From Geothrix limicola (GTDB lineage Bacteria; Acidobacteriota; Holophagae; Holophagales; Holophagaceae), in assembly GCF_030268085.1 (NCBI RefSeq), contig NZ_BSDE01000003.1, forward strand, positions 620,001 through 684,000: a DNA stretch of 64,000 bases, in the 5' to 3' direction. Numbering within the stretch: position 1 is the stretch's first letter; every line of letters starts with the position of its first letter. The notes below the pieces were generated by a model. That model was not told the origin of the DNA. It saw only the letters and a list, made by a program, of their open reading frames with translations, and did no database searches. A program made the position numbers and the translations under genes. Shown here piece after piece: positions 4,065-22,494 of the stretch.

Positions 4065-5549
4065 GTGGACGCGCCGCTGCTGCTCGCGCTTTCCCGGGCC
4101 TGGCTGAGGGAACGGGGAGACCTGCCCCTGGAGGCGGTCTGGGCCTCGGGCCGGGCCCTGGGCCTGCGCTGGGCGGGCCGGAAGCGCGCGGAAGGCTGGG
4201 TGCTGCTCTTGCAGCCCAAGCCCGAACTCTGGCTGCTCGGCACCGAACATCCCGCCTGGAAGCGCCTTCAGGCCGAGGCCGCCAAGGACAGCGCCAGGCT
4301 TTGGGGCCCCTGGTTTCAGGGTGCGCGGCTGAGAGCGGTGGAAGGCGATCCCCGCGAGCGGTGGCTGGGCCTCGTGTTCCAGCGGCGGGCGATCACCGGA
4401 CGGCTGGAGACGCTGCGCCTCGCCTACCAGGCCATTCCCGGACGGCCGGGCCTGCGCGTGGATGGCCTGGATACCCAGGTGCCGCGCCTGGGGCTGGGTT
4501 CGCCCTTTCCCGCCGCAGCGCCCCAGCCCGCGGCGGATCCACCTCCGCTGCAGCGCTGGCGTGAGCGCTGGGGAGACCGCTTGGAAGCCGCCCTCGCGGG
4601 CGAGGAACCCGAGGTGCTGGAGGGTGAGGGCGATCTGCTGGCGCGGCATCAAGCCTGGTCCGAGGGCCGGGCCGAAACCCTGATCCTCGGGCCCGCCCAG
4701 GCTGCCGCCGCGCGCAGGCGCCAGGCCGAATCGGCGCGCCTGGATCGGCTGGCCCAGGCCCTGGCGCGGGACCGCGCCAAGCACGAGGCCCAGCTCCCGC
4801 TGAAGGATCAGGCCCGCCGGATTTCGGCGGAGCTCTACCGCCTGAAGGGCGCGACCCGGCAGGTGGTCCTGCTGGATGGCAGCGCGCTGGCGCTTCCCGA
4901 GGGCAGCTCGGCCGAGGCGGCCGTGCAGGACTGGTTCGCGGCCGCCAAGAAGGCGGAGCGGGGTCTGGCGCGGGTCTCCGAACTGGAGGCCGAGCTCCGG
5001 CGCGAGCGGGCCGCCTGGGAGGCCCGGGCCGCGCTAGAGGCCGAAGGCCTTGCGCCCGAGCCTCCCGCCGCGAGACAACCGAATGGACTGGCGAAGGGGC
5101 AGGCGAAGGGCAAGGCCGCCTCGAAGATCACATCGGGCGACAAGGGGACGAAGCGGATGAATGCAGGCGAAGGAAAGCGCAAGGACGGCAAGGGCACGGC
5201 CTTCCGCAGCGTCATGGTGGATGGCTTCGAGGTGCTCATCGGCAAGGGCGACGCCGAGAACGATCAGCTCACCTTCAAGGTCGCCGACAACCTGGATTTC
5301 TGGCTGCACGTGGCCAGCGTGCCCGGCAGCCATGTCGTGATCCGCAACCCCGACAAGCTGAGCGAGCTGCCGCGCCACGTAATCGAGCGCGCCGCCGAGC
5401 TGGCCGCCTACCACAGCAAGGCCCGGGACGGCGGCAAGGTCGAAGTCCACCTCGCCCGTATCGCGGACATCAGCAAACCCAGGGGCTTCGCGCCGGGCAA
5501 GGTGATCCTCAAAAAATGGATCGGCGTTCGGGTGTATCCCAAGCCCTGA
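4065..5549 (+). CDS. rqcH: RqcH/NEMF-like NFACT protein (fibronectin-binding A family)
   Basis: A 494-residue protein starting with GTG at 4065, with GGAGGGG about six bases upstream. The N-terminal half resembles NFACT-N and is followed by a charged helical region (about residues 205-345, many Arg/Glu/Ala), as expected for the coiled-coil arm. The C-terminal 110 residues form an NFACT-R (DUF814) domain with the diagnostic pattern GFEVLIGKGDAENDQLTFK, then DFWLHV and GSHVVI. Known homologues bind obstructed 50S subunits and recruit tRNA-Ala to add Ala tails to stalled peptides. At 494 aa it is shorter than typical RqcH (about 560-570), and the N-terminal domain is weakly conserved by eye, so full activity is not certain. 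Confidence 0.78.
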   Translation: MDAPLLLALSRAWLRERGDLPLEAVWASGRALGLRWAGRKRAEGWVLLLQPKPELWLLGTEHPAWKRLQAEAAKDSARLWGPWFQGARLRAVEGDPRERWLGLVFQRRAITGRLETLRLAYQAIPGRPGLRVDGLDTQVPRLGLGSPFPAAAPQPAADPPPLQRWRERWGDRLEAALAGEEPEVLEGEGDLLARHQAWSEGRAETLILGPAQAAAARRRQAESARLDRLAQALARDRAKHEAQLPLKDQARRISAELYRLKGATRQVVLLDGSALALPEGSSAEAAVQDWFAAAKKAERGLARVSELEAELRRERAAWEARAALEAEGLAPEPPAARQPNGLAKGQAKGKAASKITSGDKGTKRMNAGEGKRKDGKGTAFRSVMVDGFEVLIGKGDAENDQLTFKVADNLDFWLHVASVPGSHVVIRNPDKLSELPRHVIERAAELAAYHSKARDGGKVEVHLARIADISKPRGFAPGKVILKKWIGVRVYPKP

Positions 5550-5571
5550 ACAAAAAAAGCCACAGATAACA

Positions 5572-5629
5572 CCAGGGCCCGGCGAAAGCCGGGCCCTGGC
5601 CTCGATTCCGGGTCGGAGGAGGAATCGAG
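5572..5629. terminator. Two stacked hairpins between the convergent rqcH and etfA genes
   Basis: The first hairpin is a perfect 12-bp stem with a GAAA loop (5572-5583 with 5588-5599). The second pairs 5601-5609 with 5621-5629 and is followed on the plus strand by a short T-rich stretch. On the minus strand a run of seven T lies about 12 nt beyond the first hairpin. They sit exactly between two convergent stop codons and probably end both transcripts. Confidence 0.65.
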
Positions 5630-5634
5630 TCTTT

Positions 5635-6606
5635 CTACCGGGCCTTCTGGATCTGCTCGGTGAGTTCGGGCAGCAGTTCCACGAGGTCGGCGACGACGCC
5701 CACCTGGGCAGCCTGGAAGATGGGGGCCTTGGGGTTCTTGTTCACGGCCACGATGAAGGGGCTGCCCTTGAGGCCGCCCAGATGCTGGAAGGCGCCGCTG
5801 ATGCCCAGAGCCAGGTAGATCTTGGGTTTGACGGTCTGGCCCGAGGTGCCCACCTGGCGGCCCTTCTCCAGCCACTTGGCGTCCACGATGGGACGCGAGC
5901 AGCACACGGTGGCGCCCATAGCTTCGGCCAGGTCATCCACCAGCGACAGGTTGTCCTGCTCGCCGATGCCGCGGCCCACGGCCACCAGCACCTCTTCGCG
6001 GGTGATGTCCACGTCGCCCGCTTCGGCCTGCACCACCTCCACGAAGCGGCGGCGGGCGCTGAGGCCCGCGGCTTCAGGAGACTTGTCGATCACCGTGCCG
6101 ACAGCCGAAGGGCTCGCGGGCGCGAAGGCACCCGAGCGCACGGTGACGACGGCGCCCTTGGATACATCGCCCTGGACGTGAGCGGATACCTGCCCCGCGA
6201 ATTCCTGGCGCACCACCTTGAGCTGCGTGCCCTCGACGCCGTCGAAACCCACCACGTCGGGCAGGTAGGCGGCGCCCAGCTTCACGGAGAGGCCGGGGCC
6301 CAGGTCGATGCCCAGGGTGCTGTGGGGCAGGATCACGATGGATCCGGCGGGCAGAACCTTCACGAGAAGGGGGCGGATGAGTTCCGCATTGGGATAGGCC
6401 AGGGTCTCCTGATCGAAGGACCAGACTTCGGGGAAGGAGGCGGCCACTTCCTGGGCCACGGCCTTCAGGCCAGGGCCAGAACCCAGCACGAGGGCCGTGG
6501 GAGCAGCCTCGGGAAAGAGGCTCTTGGCGGCGCTGAGCAGTTCCAGTGCGGAATCATCGGCCTTGCCCGCGGCGTGGGCGATGAGTGCAAAGACGTTGGC
6601 AGCCAT
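5635..6606 (-). CDS. etfA: Electron transfer flavoprotein alpha subunit
   Basis: A 323-residue FAD-binding subunit. The C-terminal FAD domain is clear: VAVGRGIG, then GTSGQTVKPKIYLALGISG and QHLGGLKGSPFIVAVNKNP, the canonical ETF-alpha signature. With EtfB it would carry electrons between the acyl-CoA dehydrogenase and the membrane Fe-S oxidoreductase encoded directly upstream. The start codon overlaps the etfB stop by one base (TAATG), so the two subunits are translationally coupled. It is the last gene of the eight-gene operon starting at abfD. Nothing in the sequence lets me say by eye whether this ETF is bifurcating; its partner points to ordinary quinone-linked transfer. Confidence 0.95.
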   Translation of the reverse strand: MAANVFALIAHAAGKADDSALELLSAAKSLFPEAAPTALVLGSGPGLKAVAQEVAASFPEVWSFDQETLAYPNAELIRPLLVKVLPAGSIVILPHSTLGIDLGPGLSVKLGAAYLPDVVGFDGVEGTQLKVVRQEFAGQVSAHVQGDVSKGAVVTVRSGAFAPASPSAVGTVIDKSPEAAGLSARRRFVEVVQAEAGDVDITREEVLVAVGRGIGEQDNLSLVDDLAEAMGATVCCSRPIVDAKWLEKGRQVGTSGQTVKPKIYLALGISGAFQHLGGLKGSPFIVAVNKNPKAPIFQAAQVGVVADLVELLPELTEQIQKAR

Positions 6607-7394
6607 TAGTTGAGCCCTCCCTTGGCCTTGAGCAGATCCACCAGCTGGGCGGCCACTTCCTTGGTGCTGCCCGTCAGCATGTCGGCGCCGGCGCCCACGG
6701 CGGGCACGAAGTAATCCACGCGCCGCACCTTGGCCGCGGCCTGACCCACCGCCGCCGCATCGACGCCCAGGGCGGCGCCGTCGAGAACGGGGATTTCCAC
6801 CGAAGCCACCTTGCGGATGCCGCGCAGGCCCACGTAGCGCGGCTCGTTGATGCCGGTCTGGATGGACAGCACGCAGGGCAGGTCGATGTCGCTGAGTTCC
6901 TGACTGCCGCCCTCGATCTCGCGGCCGATGCGCAGGGTCGGGCCGTTCACTTCGACCTTGTTGACCAGGGAGGCGTAGGGACGATCCAGAAGGGCCGCCA
7001 GCATGCCGCCCACCTGGGCCGCGCCGTCATCGGCCTGGGCCCCCGTGAGGATGAGGTCGTAGCTCTTCTTTTCGGCGGCGGCCTTGAGGATGGTGGCCAC
7101 GCCCAGGCCGTCCGAACCGGCGAAGGCATCGTCCACCAGCATGAGGCCGGCTTCGGCGCCCATGGCCATTTCCCGGCGCACCACTTCCTCGGTGTCCGAG
7201 TCGCCCAGGGCGACCACGGTCACGGAGCCGCCTTCGCGCTCCACGATCTGGATGGCCTCTTCCACGGCGTAGTTGTCCCACTCGTTCACGGCGTAGACCA
7301 GGTCCTCGCGGCTGATGTCAGCCCCTCCGGACGCCACGCTGATCTCGTTCTCCGCCGAATCGGGAACGCGTTTCACACAGACGAGAATTTCCAT
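6606..7394 (-). CDS. etfB: Electron transfer flavoprotein beta subunit
   Basis: A 262-residue protein starting MEILVCVKRVPDS, typical of ETF-beta. Family hallmarks are NEWDNYAVEEAIQI, VTVVALGD, and DLILTGAQADDG near residue 120 in the nucleotide (AMP or second FAD) site. The usual ETF-beta recognition region follows (PYASLVNKVEV and so on). It forms the heterodimer with EtfA, 1-nt overlapped downstream. The 23-nt gap to the upstream Fe-S oxidoreductase gene fits a single transcript. Function inferred from context: electron shuttle for the butyryl-CoA/crotonyl-CoA couple. Confidence 0.95.
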   Translation of the reverse strand: MEILVCVKRVPDSAENEISVASGGADISREDLVYAVNEWDNYAVEEAIQIVEREGGSVTVVALGDSDTEEVVRREMAMGAEAGLMLVDDAFAGSDGLGVATILKAAAEKKSYDLILTGAQADDGAAQVGGMLAALLDRPYASLVNKVEVNGPTLRIGREIEGGSQELSDIDLPCVLSIQTGINEPRYVGLRGIRKVASVEIPVLDGAALGVDAAAVGQAAAKVRRVDYFVPAVGAGADMLTGSTKEVAAQLVDLLKAKGGLN

Positions 7395-7417
7395 ACATGT
7401 CCTCCGATGGGGATGAA

Positions 7418-9475
7418 TCAGTGCTGCAGTTGTCCGTCGACCAGTTCGCAGAGGTCGATGGCTTCCATCTGGCCTTCGAGGCCCGCCACCTTGATGGCGT
7501 CTTCCATGTTCGTGAGGCAGAAGGGGCAGGCGGTGACGATGACGTTGGCGCCGGCCTCCTTGGCCATGTTGATGCGCACCACGCCCATGCGCTGCTCCTC
7601 TTCGGGCTCGAAGAAGAGGCCCAGACCCCCGCCGCCGCAGCAGAAGGAGCGGTCGCGGCAGGCGCCTTCCATTTCCACCCGCTTGATGCCGGGGATGGCG
7701 TCGAGGGCCGTGCGGGGCGCTTCATACATGCCGTTGTGGCGGCCCAGGTAGCAGGGGTCGTGGTAGGTGTAGGTGCGCGTTGTATCGGCCAGGGGGTTGA
7801 ACTTGAGCTTGCCGCTCTCCACGCCCGCGGCGATGACTTCGCTGATGTGCTCCACCGGTGGCAGGCCCGCGTAGTCGTTCTTGAGGGCGTTGTAGGCGTG
7901 GGGATCGCTGGTGACGATGCGCTTGGCCTGGGATTCGAGGATGGCTTCGGTGTTCTGTTCCTTCAGGCTCTGGAAGAGCATTTCCTCGCCGTAGCGCCGC
8001 ACCTCGTGGCCGCTGTCCTTCTCCTCCTTGCCCAGGGCCATGAAATCAATATCGGCCTTGGTGAGGATGCGGGCCGTGGCCTGGGCGATCTTCTGCATGC
8101 GGTCGTCGTAGGACGTCATGCTGTCCACGAAGTAGAGCGCTTCGGCGGTGTCGCCCTTTTCGAGCAGCTTCACGTCGACGCCTTCGCCCACGCCGGCGGC
8201 CCAGTCGGCCCGCTTCTTCTCCAGCTTGCCCCAGGGGTTGCCGCGCTTCTCGAGCGCGCTGAGGGGCTTCTGCAGGGACTGGGGCACCATGCCCTCATCC
8301 ACCATGCCGCGGCGCAGATCCACGATCTTGTCGATGTACTCGATGCCGATGGGACATTCCGCTTCGCAGGCGCCGCAGGTGGTGCAGGACCAGATTTCGT
8401 CCTCGCTGTAGATGCCGCCGATGAGGGGCTCGGACTGGCCGTCGGAGATCTGGCCCAAGGGATAGCGCTTGAAGGTGTGATCGCGGCCCTTGATGCTGAT
8501 GAAGCGCGGAGACAGGGGGCGCTTCACGCGGTTGGCGGGGCACTGGTCCGAACAGCGGCCACAGTCGGCGCAGCTGTAGAAATCCAGGATGTGCTTCCAG
8601 GTGAAATCCTCGAGCTTCTTCACGCCGAAGGATTTCAATTCGTCGAGTCCCTTGTCGTCCACGCCGTGGCGTACGGGCTTCACATTCCCGGGCCGCAACC
8701 GCATGAAGGCGACGTTGAACAGGGACGTGATGACGTGGAAGTGCTTGCCCATGGGCAGCAGGCAGAGGAAGTAGAAAAAGGTGAGGTCGTGGATGGCATA
8801 GCTGGCCAGGTTGAGTTTGGCCAGGGCCGGAATCGAGATCCCGGTGAACAGGTGCTGGAAGGCCCAGGCCAGCGTGAACGGAGCGGCGCCGCCGTGGGCA
8901 CCCGCCGCCAGGAGGCTGCCTTCGAAGGCGCTTTCCGACACCAGCAGGGTGCCGATCAGGCCCAGCACCAGCAGGGCTTCGCCCGTGTGGTCCTTGCCAA
9001 GTTCCTTGGGCACGGCGTAGCGGGCCGGGCGCACGATGCCGCGGCGATACGCCAGCACCACGACGGAGAGGAAGACCGCGGTGGCCGCGTAGTCCTTCGC
9101 CACGTTGTAGGCGGCGCCCAGGGAACCGCCGAAGCCCGGCAGGGTGAAGCGCTCCATGAAGCCCAGGAAGATGAGCTGGAAGGAGCGCAGGCCCAGCACC
9201 AGAAAGCCCAGGAAGAGGACGATGTGCAGCACGCCCGCCAGCATGTAGCGCGGGTGCCGCCACTGGGCCAGCCAGACCTTGAGCACGAGGATGGTGCGCG
9301 CGCCCAGGTTGTCGAAGCGGGGATCTGGCGCGGCCTTGAGGAGGGGCGCCATGCGACGCGCCATCATCCAGGTGAAGCAGATCACGCCCACCAGGGGGAT
9401 GAGCAGGAACAGCAGCCGGGCCGGCACCCCCGCCAGGGTTGCGGAGGCGGGTGAAAAAGGAGCCGTGAATGCCAT
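7418..9475 (-). CDS. Membrane Fe-S oxidoreductase, probable ETF:menaquinone oxidoreductase (EMO type)
   Basis: A 685-residue protein. The first 260 residues hold about five to six membrane spans with His residues (VLHIVLF, AIHDLTFF, KHFHVIT) suited to b-heme binding, like NarI/HdrE-type cytochromes. Next is a dicluster domain with two [4Fe-4S] motifs, CADCGRCSDQCP (about residue 300) and CTTCGACEAECP (about 363). The C-terminal third has the two CCG-type motifs (DPCYLGRHNG; FCCGGGG near 612, then TACPFC). This architecture matches the EMO family known from fatty-acid oxidisers such as Geobacter and Syntrophomonas-type bacteria, which links ETF to menaquinone. Its place between acd and etfBA strongly supports that role. 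Confidence 0.85.
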   Translation of the reverse strand: MAFTAPFSPASATLAGVPARLLFLLIPLVGVICFTWMMARRMAPLLKAAPDPRFDNLGARTILVLKVWLAQWRHPRYMLAGVLHIVLFLGFLVLGLRSFQLIFLGFMERFTLPGFGGSLGAAYNVAKDYAATAVFLSVVVLAYRRGIVRPARYAVPKELGKDHTGEALLVLGLIGTLLVSESAFEGSLLAAGAHGGAAPFTLAWAFQHLFTGISIPALAKLNLASYAIHDLTFFYFLCLLPMGKHFHVITSLFNVAFMRLRPGNVKPVRHGVDDKGLDELKSFGVKKLEDFTWKHILDFYSCADCGRCSDQCPANRVKRPLSPRFISIKGRDHTFKRYPLGQISDGQSEPLIGGIYSEDEIWSCTTCGACEAECPIGIEYIDKIVDLRRGMVDEGMVPQSLQKPLSALEKRGNPWGKLEKKRADWAAGVGEGVDVKLLEKGDTAEALYFVDSMTSYDDRMQKIAQATARILTKADIDFMALGKEEKDSGHEVRRYGEEMLFQSLKEQNTEAILESQAKRIVTSDPHAYNALKNDYAGLPPVEHISEVIAAGVESGKLKFNPLADTTRTYTYHDPCYLGRHNGMYEAPRTALDAIPGIKRVEMEGACRDRSFCCGGGGLGLFFEPEEEQRMGVVRINMAKEAGANVIVTACPFCLTNMEDAIKVAGLEGQMEAIDLCELVDGQLQH

Positions 9476-9496
9476 GAAGACCTCCGTGGAACCGCG

Positions 9497-11311
9497 CTAC
9501 TTGCCGCCGAAGGCATCTTCAGGGATGTCGTTGGCGATGCTGCTGGCGCCGAGGATGGCCTCCATGCGGCCCAGGGTCACGGGCAGCAGGTTGCGGGTGT
9601 AGAACTCGGCGCTCATGATCTGGCCCTCGTAGAAGGCGCTGTCCTTCTCCTTGGCGCCGGCCTGGAGGGCGGCGGCGGCGAGGTTGGCGCGCCACAGGAG
9701 CATCCAGGCCATGACCATGTCGCCCACCGCTTCCATGAAGGTGAAGGCGTGGGCCGAACCCGTCATGGGATCGGACTGCATGGTCGTGGTCATGTGCGTG
9801 GTGACGGTCTCCAGGCGGGCCAGGGCCGTGGCCAGGCGGGCTGCGACGGGGGCCGTGCGCGCCAGATCCTGTGCGTTGGAGATGGCCGACTTCATGGACG
9901 CGAAGAGATCCTGGATGGCCTGGCCATTGTTTTGGCTGAGCTTGCGGCCGATGAGATCGAGGGCCTGGATGCCGTTGGTGCCTTCGTAGATGGCGGTGAT
10001 GCGCACATCGCGCAGGAGCTGCTCGACCGGGAACTCGCGGCAGTAGCCGTAGCCGCCGTAGACCTGGACGCCCAGGCTGCAGACCTCGAAGGCACGCTCG
10101 GTCACGTAGCCCTTGGCGATGGGAATCAGCAGATCGATGAGGGCCTGGGTTCGCGCCTTCTCCTCGGCCTGGGTGGCCACGTGGTTGCGGTCCATGCAGT
10201 GGGAAACGAAGTAGCCGAGGCTGCGCATGCCTTCGACGTAGCACTTCATGGTCATGAGCATGCGGCGCACGTCGGGGTGCTGGATGATGGGCACCGAGGG
10301 GGCGCTCTTGTCCGCGCCCTTCAGCAGGTGGCGGCTCTGCACGCGGGTGCGCGCGTAGTTCACAGCGTAGAGGTACGAGGTGCTGGCGCAGGCCAGGCCC
10401 TCGCTTCCTACCATGAGGCGGGCCTCGTTCATCATCATGAACATGCCGCGCATGCCCTTGTTGGGCTCGCCCAGGAGGGTGCCGATGCACTGCCCCTTGC
10501 TGCCCAGGGAGAGGGAGCAGGTGGCGTTGCCGTGGATGCCCATCTTTTCTTCGATGCCCGTGCAGACGACATCATTGAATTCGCCCAGGCTGCCGTCGTC
10601 GTTCACCCGGAACTTGGGCACGAGGAACATGGAGATGCCGGCGGTTCCGGCGGGGGCGCCTTCGATGCGGGCCAGCACGGGATGGATGATGTTGGGTACG
10701 AGGTCGTGTTCGCCCGCGGAGATGAAGATCTTGTTGCCGGTGATGGAGTAGGTGCCATCCGGATTCGGGGTGGCTGTGGCGCTCAGGGCACCCACGTCAG
10801 AACCCGCCTCGGCTTCGGTGAGCAGCATGGTGCCGCACCATTCGCCGCTGTAGAGCTTCTGGAGGTAGAGCTCCTTCTGCTTGTCCGTGCCCAGTTTTTC
10901 CACCAGCTTGCCCGCGCCGTGGGTGAGGCCCGCGGTGAGCATGAAGGCGAAGTTGGCGCCCATGAGGTAGTCCGTGGCGGCGCTGGCGACGGTGTGGGGC
11001 ATGCCCTGGCCGCCCCACTCGGCGTCATCGCTCATGGCCAGCCACTCGCCGTCCACCAGGGCCTTCCAGGCCTTGTGGAAGGAGGTGGGCATGGTGACGG
11101 CGCCGTTCGCGAAATGGGCACCGATGCGGTCTCCATCCACCTGGGTGGGGAGGATTTCTTTCACCGCCAGGTTCCTGGCTTCCGAAACGATGAGATCGAC
11201 AGCCTTGCGGTTGAAGTCGGCGAAGGGCTTGTGCTTGGCGAGTTCTTCGACCTTCAACTGCTCGTAGAGGACGAAGTCGATGTCGCGGCGGTCAGCCAGA
11301 ATCTGGGCCAT
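9497..11311 (-). CDS. Acyl-CoA dehydrogenase, ~600-aa class, probable butyryl-CoA dehydrogenase
   Basis: A 604-residue acyl-CoA dehydrogenase. The core shows [13 protein letters not shown] (FAD/substrate loop), [19 protein letters not shown] and [18 protein letters not shown]. The Glu in YEGTN is the position of the catalytic base in short- and medium-chain enzymes. A roughly 120-residue C-terminal extension, as in the larger DmdC/FadE-like class, follows. Operon position between the crotonyl-CoA-forming genes and the ETF/EMO genes indicates that the substrate pair is crotonyl-CoA/butyryl-CoA, but chain-length specificity cannot be read from sequence. Length (about 600 rather than 380) differs from clostridial Bcd. 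Start ATG at 11311, with only 21 nt to the emo gene. Confidence 0.88.
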
Positions 11312-11334
11312 GGGGGCCTCCGTGGGATCCGGGG

Positions 11335-11366
11335 ATCAGGACGCGCCGGGACCGGCGCGTCCTGAT
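11335..11366. other. Strong intercistronic hairpin between sucD and the acyl-CoA dehydrogenase gene
   Basis: Positions 11335-11349 are perfectly complementary to 11352-11366, giving a stem of about 14 bp. No T-run follows on either strand, so it is not a standard terminator. It may partially stop transcription or block 3' exonucleases, making expression of the pathway genes differ from that of the electron-transfer genes. Confidence 0.6.
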
Positions 11367-11394
11367 GTGAGTGGTTTCGGTGAAAGCGTGCGGT

Positions 11395-12750
11395 CTAGGC
11401 GAAGGTGGGCTTGGCCTTGGGAGCAGAGCCCTTCTTCTTGGGGATGGAGGCGATGCGCGTGACGTTCAGGAGGTGCTTGTAGGTGAAGTTCTCGGAGATG
11501 GAATTGCCGCCCCAGCTGCCGCAGCCCAGGGTGTTGGTGAAGGCCAGGCCGCCTTCGACCGAACCGCCGGCGGTGGTGGCGCAGGGGGCGTTCACGATGA
11601 CGCGGGAAACGGGGAGTCGGCTGCCGGCCTTGGCGATGTGCTCCTGGTTGTTGGAATGAATGCCGGCCGTGTGGCCGCTGCCTTCCAACAGCAGGTTGGC
11701 GGTGGCGATCTGGATGGCCTCGTCGATGTTCTTGTAGCTGAAGGCCGCCAGCACGGGGCACATCTTTTCTTTGCAGATGATGTCGGCCGCGCCAATACCC
11801 TTGGCCTCGAGCACGAGCACCTTGATGCCTTCGGGAATGGTGATGCCGGCCTTGGCGGCGATGAAATTCACGGACTGACCCACGGTGTCGCGCGCCAGGG
11901 CGCCGTTCTCGAAGATGGCATCCACCACCATCTGGCGTTCGGATTCCGGCACGATGTAGGCGCCCTGAGCCACGAAGGCGGCCAAGACTTCGGCCCGGTC
12001 ATCCTCGTGATAGATGAAGGACTGCTCGCCCGAGCAGATGATGCCGTTGTCGAACTTGCGGCCCGTGACCACCTTGAGGGCGGCATCCTGGTAATCGATC
12101 TGGCGATCGAGGATGACCTGGACGTTGCCGGCGCCCACGCCGAAAGAGGGCTTTCCGGAGGAGTAGGCGGACTTGACCATGGCCATGCCGCCCGTGGCCA
12201 CCACCACGTCGCAGGTCTTCATGAGCTCCTGGGTCTTCGCCACGGAGGGATCTTCGATGACCTGGACGAGGCCCTCGGGAAGGTTGAACTTCTCCAGGGC
12301 CTGGTTGATGAGGTGCACGGTGAGACCGGAGCACTGCTTGGCGCTCGGGTGGGGCGCGATGATGATGGCGTTCTTGGTCTTGAGGGCGAACATGATCTTG
12401 GACATGGGGGTCACGACGGGGTTGGTGGAAGGCGTGATGCCCGCCACCACGCCGATGGCCTTGCCGATCTCCACCAGGTTCGTCTTTTCATCCACGCGCA
12501 GGATGCCCATGGACTTCTTGTCCTTCAGGTCATGCCAGACGCCCGTGGACTTACCGAGGCACTTGGCGATCTTGTCTTCGACGGTACCCATGCCCGTCTC
12601 CTCGACGGCCAGCTTGGACAGCATCTCGGCGTTGTCGTAAACCACCTGGGCGACGGTCTGCACGATCTCGTCCACTTGCTCCTGATTGAAATTCTTCTCG
12701 AAAATGGCCTGAGCCTTGCGAGCCTTGGCAACCATGCTCTTGATTTCCAT
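11395..12750 (-). CDS. sucD: CoA-acylating succinate semialdehyde dehydrogenase (SucD type)
   Basis: 451 residues from ATG at 12750, which has a perfect AGGAGG about eight bases upstream; the open frame extends further upstream to 12987, but that part is the antisense of 4hbD. CoA-dependent aldehyde dehydrogenase fold: GITPSTNPVVTPMSK (NAD site region), SFGVGAGNV, and the catalytic Cys239 in FDNGIICSGEQS. Its length and sequence style are close to Clostridium kluyveri/Porphyromonas SucD and also to the aldehyde half of AdhE. Reaction: succinyl-CoA + NAD(P)H to succinate semialdehyde + CoA. Substrate is assigned from the neighbouring 4-hydroxybutyrate genes; acetaldehyde/butyraldehyde specificity is the alternative. 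A Lys-rich tail (KKKGSAPKAKP) is unusual. Confidence 0.88.
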   Translation of the reverse strand: MEIKSMVAKARKAQAIFEKNFNQEQVDEIVQTVAQVVYDNAEMLSKLAVEETGMGTVEDKIAKCLGKSTGVWHDLKDKKSMGILRVDEKTNLVEIGKAIGVVAGITPSTNPVVTPMSKIMFALKTKNAIIIAPHPSAKQCSGLTVHLINQALEKFNLPEGLVQVIEDPSVAKTQELMKTCDVVVATGGMAMVKSAYSSGKPSFGVGAGNVQVILDRQIDYQDAALKVVTGRKFDNGIICSGEQSFIYHEDDRAEVLAAFVAQGAYIVPESERQMVVDAIFENGALARDTVGQSVNFIAAKAGITIPEGIKVLVLEAKGIGAADIICKEKMCPVLAAFSYKNIDEAIQIATANLLLEGSGHTAGIHSNNQEHIAKAGSRLPVSRVIVNAPCATTAGGSVEGGLAFTNTLGCGSWGGNSISENFTYKHLLNVTRIASIPKKKGSAPKAKPTFA

Positions 12751-12779
12751 GGATTCATCCTCCTTTGCGGGTGATGCGG

Positions 12780-13895
12780 TTAAAAAAGGGATTGGTAGAT
12801 GTCGCGGATCTCGTCTCGAGTCAGCGCGACGTAGTTGTTGGCCAGCAGCCGTCCCTGCTTCTGCATGACGGTGTCGGCGAAGGTCTCGATTTCTTCGCGC
12901 TTCATGCCGTAGAAGCGCAGGTTGTTCTTCTGGAGGAGCTGGCCGAAGAGCAGGTCCAGCCGGTCGTACACGCTGTCCTGGCCGCAATGGAGGAGGCCCG
13001 CCAGCAGGGCGTTCAACTCCTGGATGCGGCCCTGAGGCTGCTTGGCCTGGTAGCGCTTGAAGACGGCCGTGAAGAACTGGTAGTTCGCCTCGCCGTGAGG
13101 CACGTGATAGGTCCCGCCCAGCGGGTAGGAAAGCGCATGCACGGCGCCCACGCCCGTATTCCCGAAGGCGATGCCCGCGAAGTTGCTGGCCATCAGCATG
13201 TCTTCCAGGCGCTGGAAACGGTACTCGGGGCCTTCGGCCACGATGCGGCTGAACACATCGAGAATCAGCTCGACGGCGGCCTTGGCGTAGAGCTGGGTGT
13301 AGGGGTTGGACTTCGGCGAAACGTAGGATTCCACCGCATGGATGAAGGCGTCGATGGCGCTGTAAGTGTAGAACTTGAAGGGCAGGCCCTTGAGCAGTTC
13401 CGGGATGATCACGGCGTCGTCGGCCAGGATGGCGTCGTCCGCCAGGCCCATCTTGGTGTGCTTGGAGGTGATCTCGGCGATGGAGAGGTTGGTGACTTCG
13501 CTGCCGGTACCGCAGGTGGTGGGAAGGATGACCAGCTGCTTGGCCTTGACGATGGGGATGGTGCGGTCGAAGGCCTGCACGACGTCTTCGAGGCCTTCGA
13601 GCACGAAGAGCTTGGCGATGTCGATGACCGTGCCGCCGCCCACGGCGATCACGCGGTCGAAGACCAGGCCCTTCACGTCGCCGAGGATGCTGTTCATCAT
13701 CACATCCGAAGGCTCGCCGGCGCCGTAGTGTTCCTGCATGACGACGTGGCAGCGCAGGTCCAGCGCCTTCATGAAGGGAGCGTGAAGGAACTCGTGAGTG
13801 ATGACCAGGTCACGCTCGGAGAGCTGGAAGGCTTCGGCGAAGGCCGCGAAGGTATCGAAGCGGCTGAGCCGGGTCTTGAGAGAGAAGAGCTGCAT
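12780..13895 (-). CDS. 4hbD: Iron-containing alcohol dehydrogenase, 4-hydroxybutyrate dehydrogenase
   Basis: 371 residues from ATG at 13895 (MQLFSLKTRLSRFDTF), the same length as clostridial 4HbD. Family III metal-dependent alcohol dehydrogenase: VIAVGGGTVIDIAKLF (nucleotide loop), PTTCGTGSEVT, and metal-ligand His residues in DAFIHAVESY, GAVHALSYPLGGTYHVPHGEAN. It would reduce succinate semialdehyde to 4-hydroxybutyrate with NADH. The gene starts 1 nt after the stop of the CoA-transferase gene and is followed by sucD after 29 nt, forming the expected pathway block. Substrate inferred from context; the metal site and fold are directly visible. Confidence 0.88.
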   Translation of the reverse strand: MQLFSLKTRLSRFDTFAAFAEAFQLSERDLVITHEFLHAPFMKALDLRCHVVMQEHYGAGEPSDVMMNSILGDVKGLVFDRVIAVGGGTVIDIAKLFVLEGLEDVVQAFDRTIPIVKAKQLVILPTTCGTGSEVTNLSIAEITSKHTKMGLADDAILADDAVIIPELLKGLPFKFYTYSAIDAFIHAVESYVSPKSNPYTQLYAKAAVELILDVFSRIVAEGPEYRFQRLEDMLMASNFAGIAFGNTGVGAVHALSYPLGGTYHVPHGEANYQFFTAVFKRYQAKQPQGRIQELNALLAGLLHCGQDSVYDRLDLLFGQLLQKNNLRFYGMKREEIETFADTVMQKQGRLLANNYVALTRDEIRDIYQSLF

Positions 13896-13896
13896 A

Positions 13897-15210
13897 TCAG
13901 ACTCCGACGGCGCACTGGACGGGTGCGAAACGGCGATCGAATTCTTCGCGCAGGCCGGCCCTGAAGGAGGGGTGCGCGATATTGATGAGGCTCTGGGCGC
14001 GCTGCTTGAGCGTGCGGCCCTTGAGGTGGGCGATGCCGAATTCGGTGACGATGTAGTCCACGTCGTTCCGCGAGGTGGAGACGGCCGCACCGGTGGCGAG
14101 GAAGGGCACGATGCGCGATACCTTGCCCCCCGCCGCCGTGGAGGGCACCGCGATGATCGACTTGCCCTCGAGGGCCATGCTGGCGCCGCGAACGAAGTCC
14201 ACCTGGCCGCCCACGCCGCTGAACTGCCTGAGCCCGATGGATTCCGAACCCACCTGACCCATGAGGTCCACTTCGATGCAGGAGTTGATGGAGACCATCT
14301 TGTTGTTCTGCATGATGACCGTGGGGTGGTTCACATAGTCCACGGGGAAGAGCTTGACCTTCGGGTGATGGTTCACGAAGTCGTAGAGGCGTTGGCTGCC
14401 CATGAGGAAGGTCGACACCAGTTCGCCCTTGTGGATGGACTTGCGGCTGCCGTTCACGACGCCCAGTTCCACCAGGTCGATGAGGCCATCCGAGAACATC
14501 TCGGAATGGATGCCCAGATCCTTCTTGTCCTTGAGGAACATCAGGACGGCATCGGGAATGGCGCCGATGCCCAGCTGGAGGGTCGAGCCGTCCTCGATGA
14601 GGGTGGCGCAGTACTCGCCCAGCCGCCTTTCTGTTTCGCCGATCTTGGGCAGGGGCAGTTCAAGGATGGGGTTGGACGTCTCGACGATGTGGGTGAGCTT
14701 GGAGACATGGATGAGGTTGTCGCCGCCGATGAAGGGCATGCGGTCGTTGGCCTCGGCGATGACGATCTTGGCCCGGTCCGCGGCGGGCTTGGTGTAGTCG
14801 CAGGACACGCCGAAGCTGCAGAAGCCGTTGGCGTCGGGCCGGGTCACCTGGATGGCGGCCACGGACACCGGCAGCTGTTTCCTGAAGAGGCCTGGGAACT
14901 CGTGGAAGTAGCAGGGCGTGTAGTCGCCGCGTCCCTCCTCCACGGCTTTCCGGTTGTTGCTGCCCAGGAAGATGCCGTTGAAGCGGAAGTGCTCCTCCAG
15001 GCCCTCGTCGAGGTAGCCTCCATCGCCCAGGCAGAGCATGTGGACCATCTCCACCTTGTGGAACCGATCCTTCTGGGCCACCAGGGCCTTCAGGAGTTCC
15101 TGGGGGGCGCCTGCGGCGTGGCCCACCACGACCCGGTCACCGCTCTTGATGACCCGAACGGCGGCTTCCGCGGTGGTCAGTTTCTCCCGGTAGATCCTTT
15201 GCCAATCCAT
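13897..15210 (-). CDS. abfT: 4-hydroxybutyrate CoA-transferase
   Basis: 437 residues, almost exactly the length of Clostridium aminobutyricum AbfT (438). It belongs to the acetyl-CoA hydrolase/transferase (class I) family. The covalent-intermediate glutamate is Glu237 in LGIHSEMFSDG, matching the AbfT active-site Glu within one residue. Other signatures are NGFCSFGVSCDYT, LQLGIGAIPDAV and GVGGQVDFVRGA. It activates 4-hydroxybutyrate by moving CoA from acetyl-CoA or butyryl-CoA. In this operon butyryl-CoA could be the donor, releasing butyrate and closing the cycle; that is inference. Start ATG 15210 has GGAGAAG upstream. Confidence 0.9.
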   Translation of the reverse strand: MDWQRIYREKLTTAEAAVRVIKSGDRVVVGHAAGAPQELLKALVAQKDRFHKVEMVHMLCLGDGGYLDEGLEEHFRFNGIFLGSNNRKAVEEGRGDYTPCYFHEFPGLFRKQLPVSVAAIQVTRPDANGFCSFGVSCDYTKPAADRAKIVIAEANDRMPFIGGDNLIHVSKLTHIVETSNPILELPLPKIGETERRLGEYCATLIEDGSTLQLGIGAIPDAVLMFLKDKKDLGIHSEMFSDGLIDLVELGVVNGSRKSIHKGELVSTFLMGSQRLYDFVNHHPKVKLFPVDYVNHPTVIMQNNKMVSINSCIEVDLMGQVGSESIGLRQFSGVGGQVDFVRGASMALEGKSIIAVPSTAAGGKVSRIVPFLATGAAVSTSRNDVDYIVTEFGIAHLKGRTLKQRAQSLINIAHPSFRAGLREEFDRRFAPVQCAVGV

Positions 15211-15295
15211 GACTTCTCCTTCCGCCCCGGAAAGGGCAGCCTGCCTTCAGCCGGGGCCTTCGCCGCGCGGCCTTTCGTGACGGCCTGGTTGAGGC

Positions 15296-16753
15296 CTACT
15301 TGTTCTCGCTTTCGTTCACCTTTGCGATTTTCTTGGCCAGGAGCTTCTTGAGCTCGAGGTTCGATTGACGGGCGATCATGATGCGCTGGGCCTGAGGCGA
15401 CCCGGCGCCGTGCATGGATTCCGTGCGGTAGCCCACGGCCGCCGTTCCCAACGTGAGGTTCTCGATGAGCCGCAGGACGCGCATGCGGTTCGCGGTGCCC
15501 ACGCCCGCGACACCCTTGAGATACTTCTTCACGAAGGGGCCCACCTTCTTGTCGCGGTAGTCCGCCTCGGAGGGCATGGTCACCATGATGCCGCCGGCGA
15601 TGTCCTCGGCGAGGCGGGCGATCTCGTAGGGGAAGCGCGTGACGTTCTGCTTGCAGACGTTCGCCAGCAGGTTGTCGATCTGGTAGTTGCCGGCCTTGGT
15701 CTTGCAACCCTCGGCGGAGCAGGCGATGCCGCAGGCATAAAGGGTCTCGTTGAGATGGGTCATCTCGATGAGCTTGTCCTTGATGTGGTTCGCCTTCGCC
15801 GCGCCGTTGTAGTCCGCGGCCAGGGCGGCGGCGCCGATGAGCACGTCACCCACACCCGTCTTGCAGCCGCCGTAGGACTGCCGATGGTAGCCCGCGAAGC
15901 GCTCCACCATCATCCCGGCGAACTCCCACTCCTTGCAGAGGAAGACGCGGTTCCAGGGCACGAAGACATCCTCGAAGATCACCAGCGCCTCATGGCCGCC
16001 GAACTCGGAGTTGCCCACATCGATGTCGGCGCCTTCTTCCATCTTGCGCGTATCGCAGGATTGGCGGCCGTAGATCATGAAGACGCCTTCGGCATCCGAG
16101 GGCACGGCGAAGGACACGGCGTAGGCCTTGTCCTCTTCCTTCATGGCCTGGGTGGGCATGATGAGGTGTTCGTGGGAATTCAGGGCGCCGGTTTGGTGGG
16201 CCTTGGCGCCGCGCACGACGATGCCGTCGGCACGCTCCTCCACGATGTGGAGGTACATGTCCGGGTCCTCCTGCTTGGAGGGAGCGAGAGACCGATCACC
16301 CTTGGGATCGGTCATGGCGCCGTCCACCGTCAGGTCGTTCTCCTGGACGAACTTCATGTATTCCGTGAAGCGCTTGTGGTACTCGGTGCCGCACTTGGCG
16401 TCGATCTCGAAGGTGGTGGAGAAGATGGCGTTGAATGCATCCATGCCCACGCAGCGCTGGAAGCAGGAGGCCGTCTTCTGGCCCAGCAGGCGCTGCATCT
16501 TCACCTTCTTCACCAGGTCTTCGGTGCTCTGGTGCAGGTGGCAGAAGCGGTTCACGGTCTTGCCCGTGAGGTGCGACGTCGCCGTCATCAGGTCCTTGTG
16601 CTCTTCCTGCTCGGCCAGCTCGTAGGTCATGGCCACGGAGTTCAGGGAGGGGCGGATCATGGGGTGGTCGACCGGGTTCTCGATCAGCTCGCCGAAGAGG
16701 TAAACCTTCAGGTTCAGCTTGCGGATGCTTGCGATGTATTGGTCTTTGTTCAT
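15296..16753 (-). CDS. abfD: 4-hydroxybutyryl-CoA dehydratase / vinylacetyl-CoA isomerase
   Basis: 485 residues from ATG at 16753. It is in the 4-hydroxyphenylacetate 3-hydroxylase family, but with the dehydratase-specific [4Fe-4S] ligands: Cys97 and Cys101 (SCFQRC), His290 and Cys297 (GYHRQSYGGC). These sit at a constant -2 offset from Cys99, Cys103, His292 and Cys299 of the C. aminobutyricum enzyme, so the cluster site is intact. FAD contacts such as TDPKGDRSLAP and GALNSHEHLIMP are also recognisable. It dehydrates 4-hydroxybutyryl-CoA to crotonyl-CoA; the enzyme is oxygen-sensitive, implying an anaerobic niche. First gene of the operon, controlled by the promoter/operator upstream. Confidence 0.95.
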   Translation of the reverse strand: MNKDQYIASIRKLNLKVYLFGELIENPVDHPMIRPSLNSVAMTYELAEQEEHKDLMTATSHLTGKTVNRFCHLHQSTEDLVKKVKMQRLLGQKTASCFQRCVGMDAFNAIFSTTFEIDAKCGTEYHKRFTEYMKFVQENDLTVDGAMTDPKGDRSLAPSKQEDPDMYLHIVEERADGIVVRGAKAHQTGALNSHEHLIMPTQAMKEEDKAYAVSFAVPSDAEGVFMIYGRQSCDTRKMEEGADIDVGNSEFGGHEALVIFEDVFVPWNRVFLCKEWEFAGMMVERFAGYHRQSYGGCKTGVGDVLIGAAALAADYNGAAKANHIKDKLIEMTHLNETLYACGIACSAEGCKTKAGNYQIDNLLANVCKQNVTRFPYEIARLAEDIAGGIMVTMPSEADYRDKKVGPFVKKYLKGVAGVGTANRMRVLRLIENLTLGTAAVGYRTESMHGAGSPQAQRIMIARQSNLELKKLLAKKIAKVNESENK

Positions 16754-16882: not shown

Positions 16883-16908
16883 ATCGGTAAATCATTACCG
16901 ATCGGTAA
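16883..16908. promoter_or_regulatory. Overlapping palindromic operators of the abfD operon
   Basis: A perfect 14-bp palindrome, TTACCGATCGGTAA (16895-16908), overlaps a second inverted repeat, ATCGGTAA-ATCA-TTACCGAT (16883-16902). Read on the minus strand, the palindrome starts immediately after the -10 hexamer, so a bound protein would cover the transcription start. The symmetry and length suggest a TetR-family repressor, as is common for acyl-CoA metabolism. No regulator gene is adjacent. Confidence 0.7.
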
Positions 16909-16939: not shown

Positions 16940-17191
16940 CGAAATTCGTCTCCATCGCGAAGGTGGAAATTCTGAATTCCTGTTCCTGTAGCTAATTCAG
17001 AACCCAGTGATGGCGGGCCTTTCGAGGTTCACGGATCGGATTTTCGGAGGTTGTTATCCCGAATTGGTTGTGTCGAAGATCACCGTAGATTACCAATCCA
17101 TCGTGAATGAAGGTATCGGGGCGGCGCATCGTGGATGGCCTTGGATACCCGCATCAGGGCTCGATGTGGCCCATTTTGTGGGGTGCCCGGT

Positions 17192-17746
17192 CTACTCCGC
17201 CTTCACGGCGAAGGGCTTGAACCCAGCCTTCTTCAGCTTCTCGGCGGTCTTGTCCACGGCCGCGCGATCGGCGGACTTGGCCAGGCGCACCTTGAGCTGG
17301 CCCTTCTCCTTCGTCGTCGTCGTGGCGAAGCCCGCGGCCTTGGCCTTCTCGGCGGTCTTCTTGGCTTCGGCGGCATCGGCGGTGGAGAGCAGCTGCAGGG
17401 TCCAGGCCTCGGTCTGAGTGGATTTGTCGGCGGGCTTGTCGGTGGCCTTGGTCTCGGGCTTCGCCTCGGACTTGGGCTCTTCCTTGGGCGCGGTGGCGTC
17501 GACCTTGGGGGTGGGCACGAGCTTGTCGGGGCCGTCGCCTTCGAAGATCTTGAGCTGGTCCACCAGGGGTTCGGGCAGCTCCTTCAATTCGTCTTCCACG
17601 CCCTTCTGCACGGGCCGGCGCAGGGCCGCGCTCTGCTTGCCCACCTGCACGCCCAGCACGAAGGCGAGGGTGAGCAGGCCCACGCCCACGCCTGCCACCC
17701 ACAGGATGGACTGGCTGCCGATGCTGATCTGGTCGCGCTGGCTCAC
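17192..17746 (-). CDS. Membrane-anchored SPOR-domain protein
   Basis: 184 residues from GTG at 17746, chosen because AGGAGGT sits five bases upstream. Residues 10-35 form one transmembrane helix (SILWVAGVGVGLLTLAFVLG) after a short cytoplasmic start. A Lys/Pro/Glu/Thr-rich periplasmic linker (about 85-120) follows, then a C-terminal region of about 70 residues (AWTLQLLSTADAAEAKKTAEK onward) with the pattern of a SPOR domain, which binds denuded peptidoglycan at division sites. It sits at the end of the ACP/ketosynthase cassette, separated from it only by a 25-codon mini-ORF. Whether it is functionally linked to the cassette or only co-transcribed is unclear. Confidence 0.75.
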   Translation of the reverse strand: MSQRDQISIGSQSILWVAGVGVGLLTLAFVLGVQVGKQSAALRRPVQKGVEDELKELPEPLVDQLKIFEGDGPDKLVPTPKVDATAPKEEPKSEAKPETKATDKPADKSTQTEAWTLQLLSTADAAEAKKTAEKAKAAGFATTTTKEKGQLKVRLAKSADRAAVDKTAEKLKKAGFKPFAVKAE

Positions 17747-17820
17747 GCGGCACCTCCTGTGCCGCGCCCTTCGGGCTTCGGCTGCGCCAAAGTGGCACTT
17801 CGCTCCTGCTTCATGCTCAT
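17743..17820 (-). CDS. 25-codon mini-ORF bridging dead ketosynthase and SPOR genes
   Basis: ATG at 17820 overlaps the ketosynthase-like stop (ATGA), and its own TGA overlaps the GTG of the SPOR gene, so it is joined by 4-nt overlaps on both sides. The peptide starts MSMKQERSATLAQPKPEG and has no domain. The first 23 nt resemble (20 of 23) a stretch downstream of nuoD, so this may be a dispersed repeat that happens to be open. Translation is possible but unproven. Confidence 0.35.
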   Translation of the reverse strand: MSMKQERSATLAQPKPEGRGTGGAA

Positions 17821-20119: not shown

Positions 20120-20523
20120 AGGCGCTTGACCAGGAGGGCGGCGGTGCAGAGCTCGTGGCCCTCGCAGCTCACGGTGCCGCGGACCTTCATGAGCCCCGCG
20201 AAGGCGCCTTCGGCCTGGACCTCCAGGCGCAGCCGGTCGCCGGGCAGGGCGGGGGCCTTGAAGCGGGCGTCCTGCACCCCGGCCAGGAAGATGGCGGCGC
20301 CGTGCAGGGATTCGGATTCCAGGAAGCCTCCGGCCTGGGCGAGCATCTCCAGCAGCAGCACGCCCGGCACGAGGGGGCGGCCCTCGAAATGGCCCTGCAG
20401 GTAGGGTTCGCCGTTCGTGACGAGCTTTTCGGCCACCACGCGCCGGCCGGGCTCCCGTTCGAGAATCCGGTCCACCAGCAGGAAGGGGTAGCGGTGCGGC
20501 AGGTGGGCCGGGATGTCCGTCAT
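20116..20523 (-). CDS. FabZ-like 3-hydroxyacyl-ACP dehydratase
   Basis: 135 residues, a single hot-dog domain. LPHRYPFLLVDRI at the N-terminus and the catalytic pair His45 (GHFEGRP) and Glu59 (GVLLLEMLAQAGG) have the 14-residue spacing of FabZ. It removes water from 3-hydroxyacyl-ACP to give trans-2-enoyl-ACP. The gene begins 8 nt after the ACP stop, and its own stop overlaps the KS start. A second FabZ elsewhere would be expected for normal fatty acid synthesis; this copy probably belongs to the cassette. FabA-type isomerase activity is not suggested by the motif. Confidence 0.88.
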   Translation of the reverse strand: MTDIPAHLPHRYPFLLVDRILEREPGRRVVAEKLVTNGEPYLQGHFEGRPLVPGVLLLEMLAQAGGFLESESLHGAAIFLAGVQDARFKAPALPGDRLRLEVQAEGAFAGLMKVRGTVSCEGHELCTAALLVKRL

Positions 20524-20531
20524 GTCGGGGC

Positions 20532-20789
20532 CTAGGCCTTGTTCTGCTCGGCGATGAAGTCCGTGAGGGCCTGCACGGACCGGAAGGCCTTGAGGCCCGC
20601 GGCCTCGTCCTCGATCTTCACGCCGAAGACCTGCTCGATGCCCAGCACGAGCTCCAGGGCGTCGATGGAATCCAGGCCCAGGCCCTCGCCGAAGAGGGGG
20701 GCGGCGTCGTCGATCTGGTCGGGCGTCATGCCCTCGAGCTTCAACCGCTCGATGATCATCTCTTTGACGCGCAGCTTGAGGTCGCTCAT
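20532..20789 (-). CDS. Acyl carrier protein of the KS cassette
   Basis: 85 residues, acidic and helical, with the phosphopantetheine attachment Ser41 in GLGLDSIDALEL. It is the first gene of the minus-strand cassette ACP-FabZ-KS-deadKS-(mini-ORF)-SPOR. The motif DSID instead of the housekeeping DSLD/DSLDTVE and the N-terminal RVKEMIIERLKLEG fit a specialised ACP. It would carry the growing acyl chain between the cassette enzymes. Its promoter must lie in the 174-bp divergent gap shared with nuoA. Confidence 0.9.
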   Translation of the reverse strand: MSDLKLRVKEMIIERLKLEGMTPDQIDDAAPLFGEGLGLDSIDALELVLGIEQVFGVKIEDEAAGLKAFRSVQALTDFIAEQNKA

Positions 20790-21344: not shown

Positions 21345-21345
21345 G

Positions 21346-21954: not shown

Positions 21955-21990
21955 TCGGGCTTCTAGCCGGGCTTCCAGGCAGGACGGACC

Positions 21991-22482: not shown

Positions 22483-22494
22483 GAGGCGATGACC

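Follow-up and report, generated by a model that had tools for sequence, protein, structure and literature searches.

A predicted eight-gene operon of Geothrix limicola combines 4-hydroxybutyrate pathway genes with an EMO-type electron-transfer module

Described systems and the Geothrix locus

Clostridium aminobutyricum and C. kluyveri, which ferment 4-aminobutyrate (GABA) and succinate, use an NADH-dependent bifurcating butyryl-CoA dehydrogenase with its electron-transfer flavoprotein (Bcd-Etf). Here, we analysed a locus in a stretch of 64,000 nucleotides from Geothrix limicola (contig NZ_BSDE01000003.1, positions 620,001 to 684,000 of the forward strand; the whole of it is called the window below), which has the chemistry of AbfD, AbfT, 4HbD and SucD in common with these clostridial fermentations. 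The locus comprises eight intact open reading frames (ORFs) with no internal stops, all on the minus strand at 5635-16753, in the order abfD, abfT, 4hbD, sucD, acd, emo, etfB and etfA. Close relatives of the operon proteins are found in the structures 1u8v, 3gk7 and 8cei, which we take to come from the fermentation genes of C. aminobutyricum and C. kluyveri. The gene orders of three Clostridium AbfD loci (L064, L067 and L072), however, differ from that of the operon.

On the side of electron transfer, the likeness is to Syntrophomonas wolfei, for which Bcd, EtfAB and a DUF224 protein were proposed to connect butyryl-CoA/crotonyl-CoA with menaquinone, and in which EtfAB and DUF224 were abundant after growth on butyrate or crotonate (PMC3582634, available part of the text). 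There, a membrane iron-sulfur (FeS) protein, the DUF224 protein Swol_0698, is encoded with EtfAB (Swol_0696-0697), as it is with EtfB and EtfA here, although this likeness is one by description. According to the same part of that paper the S. wolfei set is not joined to 4-hydroxybutyrate genes, and its Bcds are encoded elsewhere in its genome. A survey of butyrate routes states, in the portion available, that Bcd is common to all butyrate producers and that Etf subunits occur in the anaerobic ones, with Bcd acting in trans for the 4-aminobutyrate route (PMC5133246); unlike in that statement, Bcd lies in cis in the Bacteroidota abf loci described below. The abf pathway, the EMO protein and Etf are each already known, and it is their combination that is new.

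We found no report of a butyrate or 4-hydroxybutyrate pathway in Acidobacteriota, Geothrix or Holophaga among the open-access matches listed. The string 'acidobacter' is absent from the text of the butyrate survey (PMC5133246). The accessible part of PMC6137239 mentions 4-hydroxybutyrate CO2-fixation cycles only as not screened for, and that of PMC8100337, which deals with Acidobacteriota of wastewater, contains no word beginning with 'butyr'.

Gene assignments and unit structure

The first gene, abfD (15296-16753), encodes a 485-aa protein assigned as 4-hydroxybutyryl-CoA dehydratase/vinylacetyl-CoA isomerase. Its best phmmer matches were 1u8v (831 bits) and 6vjr (668 bits), and it is closer to 1u8v than to vinylacetyl-CoA isomerase or to HpaB monooxygenases; an identity as HpaB monooxygenase is ruled out by the 139 bits of the best HpaB chain. 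A preliminary description of this DNA had named Cys97, Cys101, His290 and Cys297 as [4Fe-4S] ligands of AbfD and pointed to Glu237 of AbfT, and all of these residues are present at those positions. The Cys, Cys, His, Cys ligand set presumably goes back to work on 1u8v, and Glu237 is the residue that we take to be the catalytic Glu. AbfT itself (13897-15210, 437 aa) is a 4-hydroxybutyrate CoA-transferase by its best solved relatives, 3eh7 (570 bits) and 3gk7 (532 bits). The product of 4hbD (12780-13895, 371 aa) has the iron-type alcohol dehydrogenase fold (Pfam Fe-ADH) and matches 30sm (Cvir-Hbd2) with 388 bits over nearly its full length, the next best match having 111 bits; it is assigned as 4-hydroxybutyrate dehydrogenase on the assumption that Hbd stands for that enzyme. 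SucD (11395-12750, 451 aa) is assigned as a CoA-acylating succinate-semialdehyde dehydrogenase, with 496 bits to 8cei and 327 bits to the next best relative; its ICSGEQ motif at residue 238 holds what is presumably the active-site Cys, and succinate semialdehyde is its predicted substrate. Names taken from NCBIfam alone would be weak, since none of the matches listed for the eight proteins (25 of 26 for EMO, 25 of 30 for SucD) reaches its curated cut-off; 4HbD, for example, gives 107 bits with NF058672, whose cut-off is 500.

The fifth gene, acd (9497-11311), encodes an acyl-CoA dehydrogenase of 604 aa with the Pfam domain Acyl-CoA_dh_C, belonging to the DmdC/FadE5-like group of about 600 aa. 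It matches 6ijc, which we take to be DmdC, with 443 bits, 6kse (FadE5) with 362 bits and the butyryl-CoA dehydrogenase 1buc with 108 bits. With these scores, and with 604 aa against the approximately 380 aa of a Bcd, a Bcd identity is ruled out; Acd is nevertheless presumed to act on crotonyl-CoA/butyryl-CoA. The product of emo (7418-9475, 685 aa) is of the DUF224/EMO type, i.e., a membrane-bound FeS protein resembling ETF:menaquinone oxidoreductase, with Fer4 and CCG domains and 9ojn as its best solved relative (298 bits). A simple hydropathy scan gives four hydrophobic N-terminal segments, which are followed by two CX2CX2CX3C motifs at 302-312 and 364-374 and by CCG-type cysteines, so that membrane segments, two [4Fe-4S] motifs, a CCG domain and a position beside etfBA are all found. 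Nineteen His and Cys residues are invariant in nine EMO homologues, among them His84, His245 and His247, which would fit ligands of a b-type haem. The last two genes, etfB (6606-7394, 262 aa, Pfam ETF) and etfA (5635-6606, 323 aa, Pfam ETF_alpha and ETF), encode the Etf subunits. The enzyme assignments and the EMO call of the preliminary description are thus borne out by Pfam and by the best solved relatives, and its pathway from succinyl-CoA through crotonyl-CoA to butyryl-CoA stands on these enzyme identities.

The eight genes are separated, from abfD to etfA, by 85, 1, 29, 83, 21, 23 and -1 nt. An intrinsic terminator with a 13-pair stem lies behind etfA on the minus strand (5571-5600). On this strand between 5400 and 17300 only two other terminator-like matches were obtained, a weaker one overlapping the first and one at a palindrome upstream of abfD, and hairpin-like sequences rich in G+C follow etfA in the other three genomes that carry the operon as well, as judged by eye. 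A promoter scan found none, with 1.4 expected. The short gaps, the gene order kept in four genomes and the one strong terminator support the prediction that the eight genes form a single transcription unit, as had been proposed.

Relatives, spread and control of the operon

The AbfD loci of named genomes that we compared are the best 80 of 526 candidates, one of them (L002) from the genus of the window and 79 from outside it, with flanks of at most 10 kb and many short contigs. All four abf genes were matched in 57 of the 80, and many of these loci keep the order of the operon. The Bacteroidota arrangement abfD-abfT-4hbD-sucD-bcd-etfB-etfA, found in Porphyromonas, Tannerella and uncultured relatives, agrees with the Geothrix operon in its first four genes, in both their order and their families, and in ending with EtfB and EtfA; the AbfD proteins are 78-86% identical to that of the operon. 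These operons differ, however, in having a shorter dehydrogenase (Bcd-like in the one checked), an ADTLATS or ADTWATS loop in the four EtfBs aligned, and no EMO match. The operon of the window departs from the full Bacteroidota-type layout: its first four and last two genes match, but Bcd is replaced by Acd and EMO. Close reading of six Bacteroidota loci showed, behind the abf genes, an ORF for a dehydrogenase of 379-392 aa and then EtfB- and EtfA-like ORFs; the one dehydrogenase checked, from L005, is Bcd-like (5ol2 579 bits, 9w60 534 bits, 1buc 412 bits). Beyond the genus, 10 of 79 loci have matches to Acd, EtfB and EtfA, and EMO was matched in none of the 79 within these flanks and often short contigs. 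The contrast with known operons drawn in the preliminary description is thus correct for Porphyromonas and other Bacteroidota, where Bcd, EtfB and EtfA come next and EMO is not matched; its clostridial part is not supported by the loci compared, as none of the Bacillota loci among the 80 has Acd or Bcd together with EtfB and EtfA beside AbfD.

In the AbfD tree (91 rows, midpoint root) the four carriers of the operon form a clade (100/98), which is joined to the Bacteroidota loci L003-L006 and L033 (85/97, not a starred fork). In a joined tree of the four abf proteins (58 loci, FastTree) the carriers again group together (1.0), and with L004, L005 and L033 at 0.98. Seven other Acidobacteriota AbfDs, from G006, G366, G400, G418, G428, G432 and, of the same family as the window, G076, make up a separate clade (99/93), and that of G180, placed among other rows, has a very long branch. 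Among 396 genomes of the phylum, drawn from a larger group, AbfD is found in 10, i.e., the four carriers and six others. The eight-gene order as a feature of the phylum is rejected, since the AbfDs of these six match at 57-60% and none of the other seven genes lies within about 1.5 kb on each side. For two AbfD homologues, in L137 (G076:C271, 75%) and L127 (G006:C140, 58%), the stretches read likewise show no match to the remaining seven genes.

The acd half has its relatives elsewhere. EMO relatives with 72-76% identity (E up to 1e-100) come from two other genera of the family, where six genomes (G070, G072-G075 and G077) have them at loci without abf genes. Acd and EtfB adjoin EMO in all six, and EtfA in five, the sixth stretch being cut and incomplete. 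In the parts available, the operon is identical to this sister-genus block at 69-73% of positions in Acd, 71-75% in EMO, 70-84% in EtfB and 62-72% in EtfA. Longer stretches were read for fad genes in G077, G073, G074, G072 and G070, and that of G075 only in part. In G077 the stretch has FadB (1094 bits, cut-off 870) and FadA (695 bits, cut-off 519), with a divergent acyl-CoA ligase gene alongside. FadB homologues, 77-95% identical to that of G077, precede Acd in the other four stretches, and FadA homologues (83-95%) stand between FadB and Acd in three of them, that is in four of five stretches with G077 counted; G070 has none. The beta-oxidation operon fadB-fadA-acd-emo-etfB-etfA of the sister genera thus has Acd, EMO, EtfB and EtfA in the same order as here, and because FadB/FadA homologues precede Acd there, the four abf genes can be said to stand where that operon has fadB(A). 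Close to the block in G072, two ORFs of L141 (G072:C1:1243500-1263400) at 108-641 and 17174-17707, transposase-like by eye, have identical first 60 residues in opposite orientation and flank it, which suggests that this fad-acd-emo block is flanked by insertion elements.

The difference from the Bacteroidota operons shows also in the EtfB loop, of which the ADTxATS form is the mark of a bifurcating Etf. Operon EtfB has GSDGLGVA and no ADTxATS at this site, the beta-oxidation EtfB of G077 has GADGLGLA, and all four aligned Bacteroidota operon EtfBs have GADTLATS or GADTWATS. The best solved relatives of operon EtfB are 1o94 (139 bits), 6fah (124 bits) and 4kpu (113 bits); in the alignment the ADTxATS loop is present in 4kpu and 6fah, which we take to be bifurcating Etfs, and not in 1o94, presumably a non-bifurcating one. 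Operon EtfB thus lacks the signature of electron-bifurcating (group 2) Etf, and a putatively quinone-linked module with this EtfB has taken the place of Bcd and a bifurcating-type EtfB. Judged by its relatives, the operon is a mosaic whose two modules arose separately, a point absent from the preliminary description, and the GC content agrees with this (62.6% in the abf half, 65.9% in the acd half and 67.4% in the window). The abf half would derive from a Bacteroidota-type abf-bcd-etf operon and the acd half from a beta-oxidation operon found at the level of the family, where it stood behind fadB(A).

Within the class, AbfD (E up to 1e-60) was found in 6 of 93 genomes, and within the genus in 4 of 47, namely that of the window, G025, G040 and G042; genus genomes are as little as 58% complete, so that absence from them is weak evidence. 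The search for the eight-gene order elsewhere, which the preliminary description had proposed, returned the identical order in three further genomes of the genus, and hence in all four carriers. In comparisons of the window's operon with those of G025 and G040, dN/dS was 0.05-0.26 in 16 of 16 cases, and the genes are under purifying selection. These results bear on the view that the locus is a chance collection or a decaying import, in which abf genes happen to lie ahead of what is left of a beta-oxidation set and the two do not work together. Such a view would accommodate two sets of relatives and the presence of the operon in only 4 of 47 genus genomes, but an identical order in four genomes at several chromosomal sites, with all frames open and a dN/dS of 0.05-0.26 for every gene in the three genomes compared in detail, makes it very improbable.

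The operon of the window lies between an ORF that we take to be NFACT-like (4065-5549) and a gene at 17192-17926. The same site was fetched from seven relatives, of which five (G024, G017, G040, G042 and G028) lack the operon there and have the two neighbours about 16-204 bp apart (measured between match edges). In G025 the neighbours are about 1.1 kb apart, and in G039 the second one was not found. On the etfA side, the operons of G040 and G042 both have a membrane-protein-like ORF of 472 aa close by, and the neighbours in G025 differ. A single common insertion site is therefore rejected, the four operons lying in at least three contexts, and since the site of the window's operon is empty in relatives while the gene order is kept, the block moves as a unit. 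NFACT is matched in 44 genus genomes, and in a tree of 31 of them the genome of the window, G025 and G040 group together (89/87) and G042 stands apart, which requires two changes or more. Beyond the operon, at 17817-20789 on the minus strand, lies a type II fatty-acid/polyketide-like set with an acyl carrier protein (ACP), a FabZ-like dehydratase, a FabF-like ketosynthase and a shorter second ketosynthase-like protein; the ACP, FabZ-like and FabF-like genes occur at this insertion region in six of the seven genomes read.

Upstream of abfD, pieces of sequence are conserved among the four carriers to about -340. One is the palindrome TTACCGATCGGTAA (16895-16908), 142 nt 5' of the abfD start, which has one change in G025 and G040 and three in G042, and is a candidate TetR-type operator; its only perfect copy in the genome is this one. 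The segment common to the carriers has at its outer edge, near the point where their sequences part, a second block, GGTAATCTAYGGTGATCT (17077-17094, minus strand), about 330 nt 5' of abfD. This block is present in all four, with two changes in G042, and is possibly a boundary or a second control site. Tandem ACCGATCGGT-like palindromes, whose core is that of the 16895-16908 palindrome and which have two changes each, were seen at C1:138652-138684 (L195) in the same genome, between a TetR-family gene, which matches three TetR-type models, all far below their cut-offs, and a metallo-beta-lactamase (MBL)-type hydrolase gene (MBL by eye). A regulon defined by the palindrome is rejected, as up to two mismatches give four genome sites against five in a reversed control; because such sites are not above the control, only the perfect site and the tandem pair are worth notice. 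The palindrome was not found in the sister-genus fad stretches at up to three mismatches. An acyl-CoA-responsive TetR switch for the operon is a lead only.

Direction of the pathway and cellular role

The preliminary description had remarked that no crotonase, 3-hydroxybutyryl-CoA dehydrogenase or thiolase is included. The operon indeed has no crotonase, 3-hydroxyacyl-CoA dehydrogenase or thiolase, but elsewhere in the genome there are genes for crotonases and thiolases, for a FadB-like fusion that stays below its cut-offs and for an acyl-CoA dehydrogenase of 381 aa. With these genes present, the missing fadBA does not by itself make the operon a flux trap at butyryl-CoA, and a route designed to end at butyryl-CoA/butyrate, as had been suggested, is only one option. 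The genome also has a second EMO, 34-39% identical to that of the operon, and this second EMO is matched in 45 of 47 genus genomes. Acd of the approximately 600-aa group is present in 43 of 47 and occurs twice in each of the four carriers. The idea that the cell has no electron chain besides these eight genes is ruled out by these second copies, and as they and the fad-like genes lie elsewhere in the genome, the operon is an extra, accessory set.

Our preferred interpretation, to which we give a probability of roughly 0.55, is that the two modules of the operon together form a self-contained system for interconverting succinyl-CoA and butyryl-CoA/butyrate, which would run in the reductive direction with electrons derived from menaquinol. 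SucD and 4HbD would convert succinyl-CoA through succinate semialdehyde to 4-hydroxybutyrate, which would then receive CoA from butyryl-CoA or acetyl-CoA by means of AbfT, with butyrate released from butyryl-CoA. AbfT enzymes accept both of these donors, and because AbfT would take CoA from butyryl-CoA no further enzyme would be needed for butyrate release. AbfD would form crotonyl-CoA from 4-hydroxybutyryl-CoA, and Acd would reduce it to butyryl-CoA with electrons passing from menaquinol through EMO to EtfAB, and not from NADH through a bifurcating Etf.

Several observations weigh against this interpretation. The closest proteins to Acd and EMO are those of beta-oxidation operons, whose usual direction is oxidative. 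Acd is not a Bcd, and may not prefer C4 chains. EtfA alone is ambiguous, its best solved relatives being 5ol2 (162 bits) and 7qh2 (156 bits), presumably members of bifurcating complexes, and 1o94 (153 bits). The crotonases, FadB-like protein and thiolases encoded elsewhere would permit oxidation of crotonyl-CoA, and one carrier, G042, has no match to the lysine aminomutase discussed below. Nor does thermodynamics fix the direction, because the midpoints of -10 or -125 mV given for crotonyl-CoA/butyryl-CoA bracket the -74 mV of menaquinone (PMC3582634, available part). The direction of the pathway cannot be read from the sequence.

The pathway might be run in reverse. AbfT would activate butyrate (or C4 compounds derived from 4-hydroxybutyrate or GABA), Acd would oxidise it to crotonyl-CoA with electrons going through EtfAB and EMO to menaquinone, AbfD would hydrate the crotonyl-CoA to 4-hydroxybutyryl-CoA, and succinyl-CoA formed from this by oxidation would directly feed the tricarboxylic acid (TCA) cycle of a respiring anaerobe. 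The relatives of Acd-EMO-EtfBA in beta-oxidation operons would agree with such a use. So would the operator-like site beside a TetR-family gene, as regulators of the TetR type often control acyl-CoA catabolism. Hydration of crotonyl-CoA is, however, the less favoured direction of AbfD, and since the genome has a separate core Acd, EMO and fad-like genes, butyrate oxidation needs no abf route. As for the described systems, the DUF224 protein was proposed as an electron carrier from butyryl-CoA to menaquinone (PMC3582634, part available), but the abf half is like that of operons in Porphyromonas, Tannerella and their relatives, and the butyrate survey lists P. gingivalis and T. forsythia with the 4-aminobutyrate route to butyrate (PMC5133246, part available). 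Taken together, we regard operation in reverse as unlikely, though a serious rival.

A further source of crotonyl-CoA is lysine fermentation. The genome contains at C2:278000-287500 (positions 1-9500 of L128, C2:278000-297900) a cluster kdd-kce-kamA-kamB-kamC-kamD-kamE-atoD-atoA, in which kdd, kce, kamA, kamC, kamD and kamE pass their NCBIfam cut-offs, kamB fails, atoD passes a subfamily cut-off only and atoA is atoA-like by eye. The cluster converges on the second EMO-type gene. Acd-EtfAB-EMO could then be a dual-purpose terminal reductase, an accessory crotonyl-CoA reductase serving amino-acid fermentation as one electron sink for crotonyl-CoA from lysine (kam/kdd/kce) and from glutamate, GABA or succinyl-CoA (abf). 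Lysine 5,6-aminomutase (E up to 1e-100) is found in 16 of 93 class genomes, and in the genus only in that of the window, G025 and G040, that is in three of four operon carriers against none of the 43 other genus genomes (Fisher p 2.5e-4, uncorrected for kinship). In the NFACT tree, however, these three form one group, and the association could therefore have arisen in a single event. Moreover, the fourth carrier lacks the aminomutase match, 13 genomes of other genera have the aminomutase and no AbfD match, and kal was not found among the lysine-cluster ORFs scanned, although no search was aimed at it. We consider a dual-purpose reductase improbable.

On the preferred, reductive interpretation, complex I upstream would pass electrons from NADH to menaquinone, in a short chain of anaerobic respiration whose final acceptor would be crotonyl-CoA. 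With nuoA-D at 20964-23694, NADH oxidation by complex I could therefore pump protons and feed a crotonyl-CoA sink. These four genes lie near the operon on the plus strand (nuoA below its cut-offs), an ORF at 26714-28084 is nuoF-like by eye, and as other genes lie between them the complex I genes seem to be split. A fuller version of the proposal is a respiration on crotonyl-CoA, in which butyrate would be formed from succinyl-CoA (and lysine) by a menaquinol-driven crotonyl-CoA reductase coupled to proton pumping by complex I, with an imported Bacteroidota module fused to a reversed beta-oxidation module and spread as one block. We put this forward only tentatively, as a possible scheme that has the odds somewhat against it.

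The operon illustrates how a pathway can be rewired when the half that transfers electrons is exchanged, and its genes lend themselves directly to testing. If our interpretation is true, the final step of butyrate formation has a second solution in terms of energy, in which a 4-hydroxybutyrate pathway that is standard in other respects is linked to quinone and does not use electron bifurcation. Butyrate/4-hydroxybutyrate metabolism would then also be present in a phylum for which the open-access papers listed have none, and butyrate chemistry may run on the respiratory chain in a member of the Acidobacteriota.

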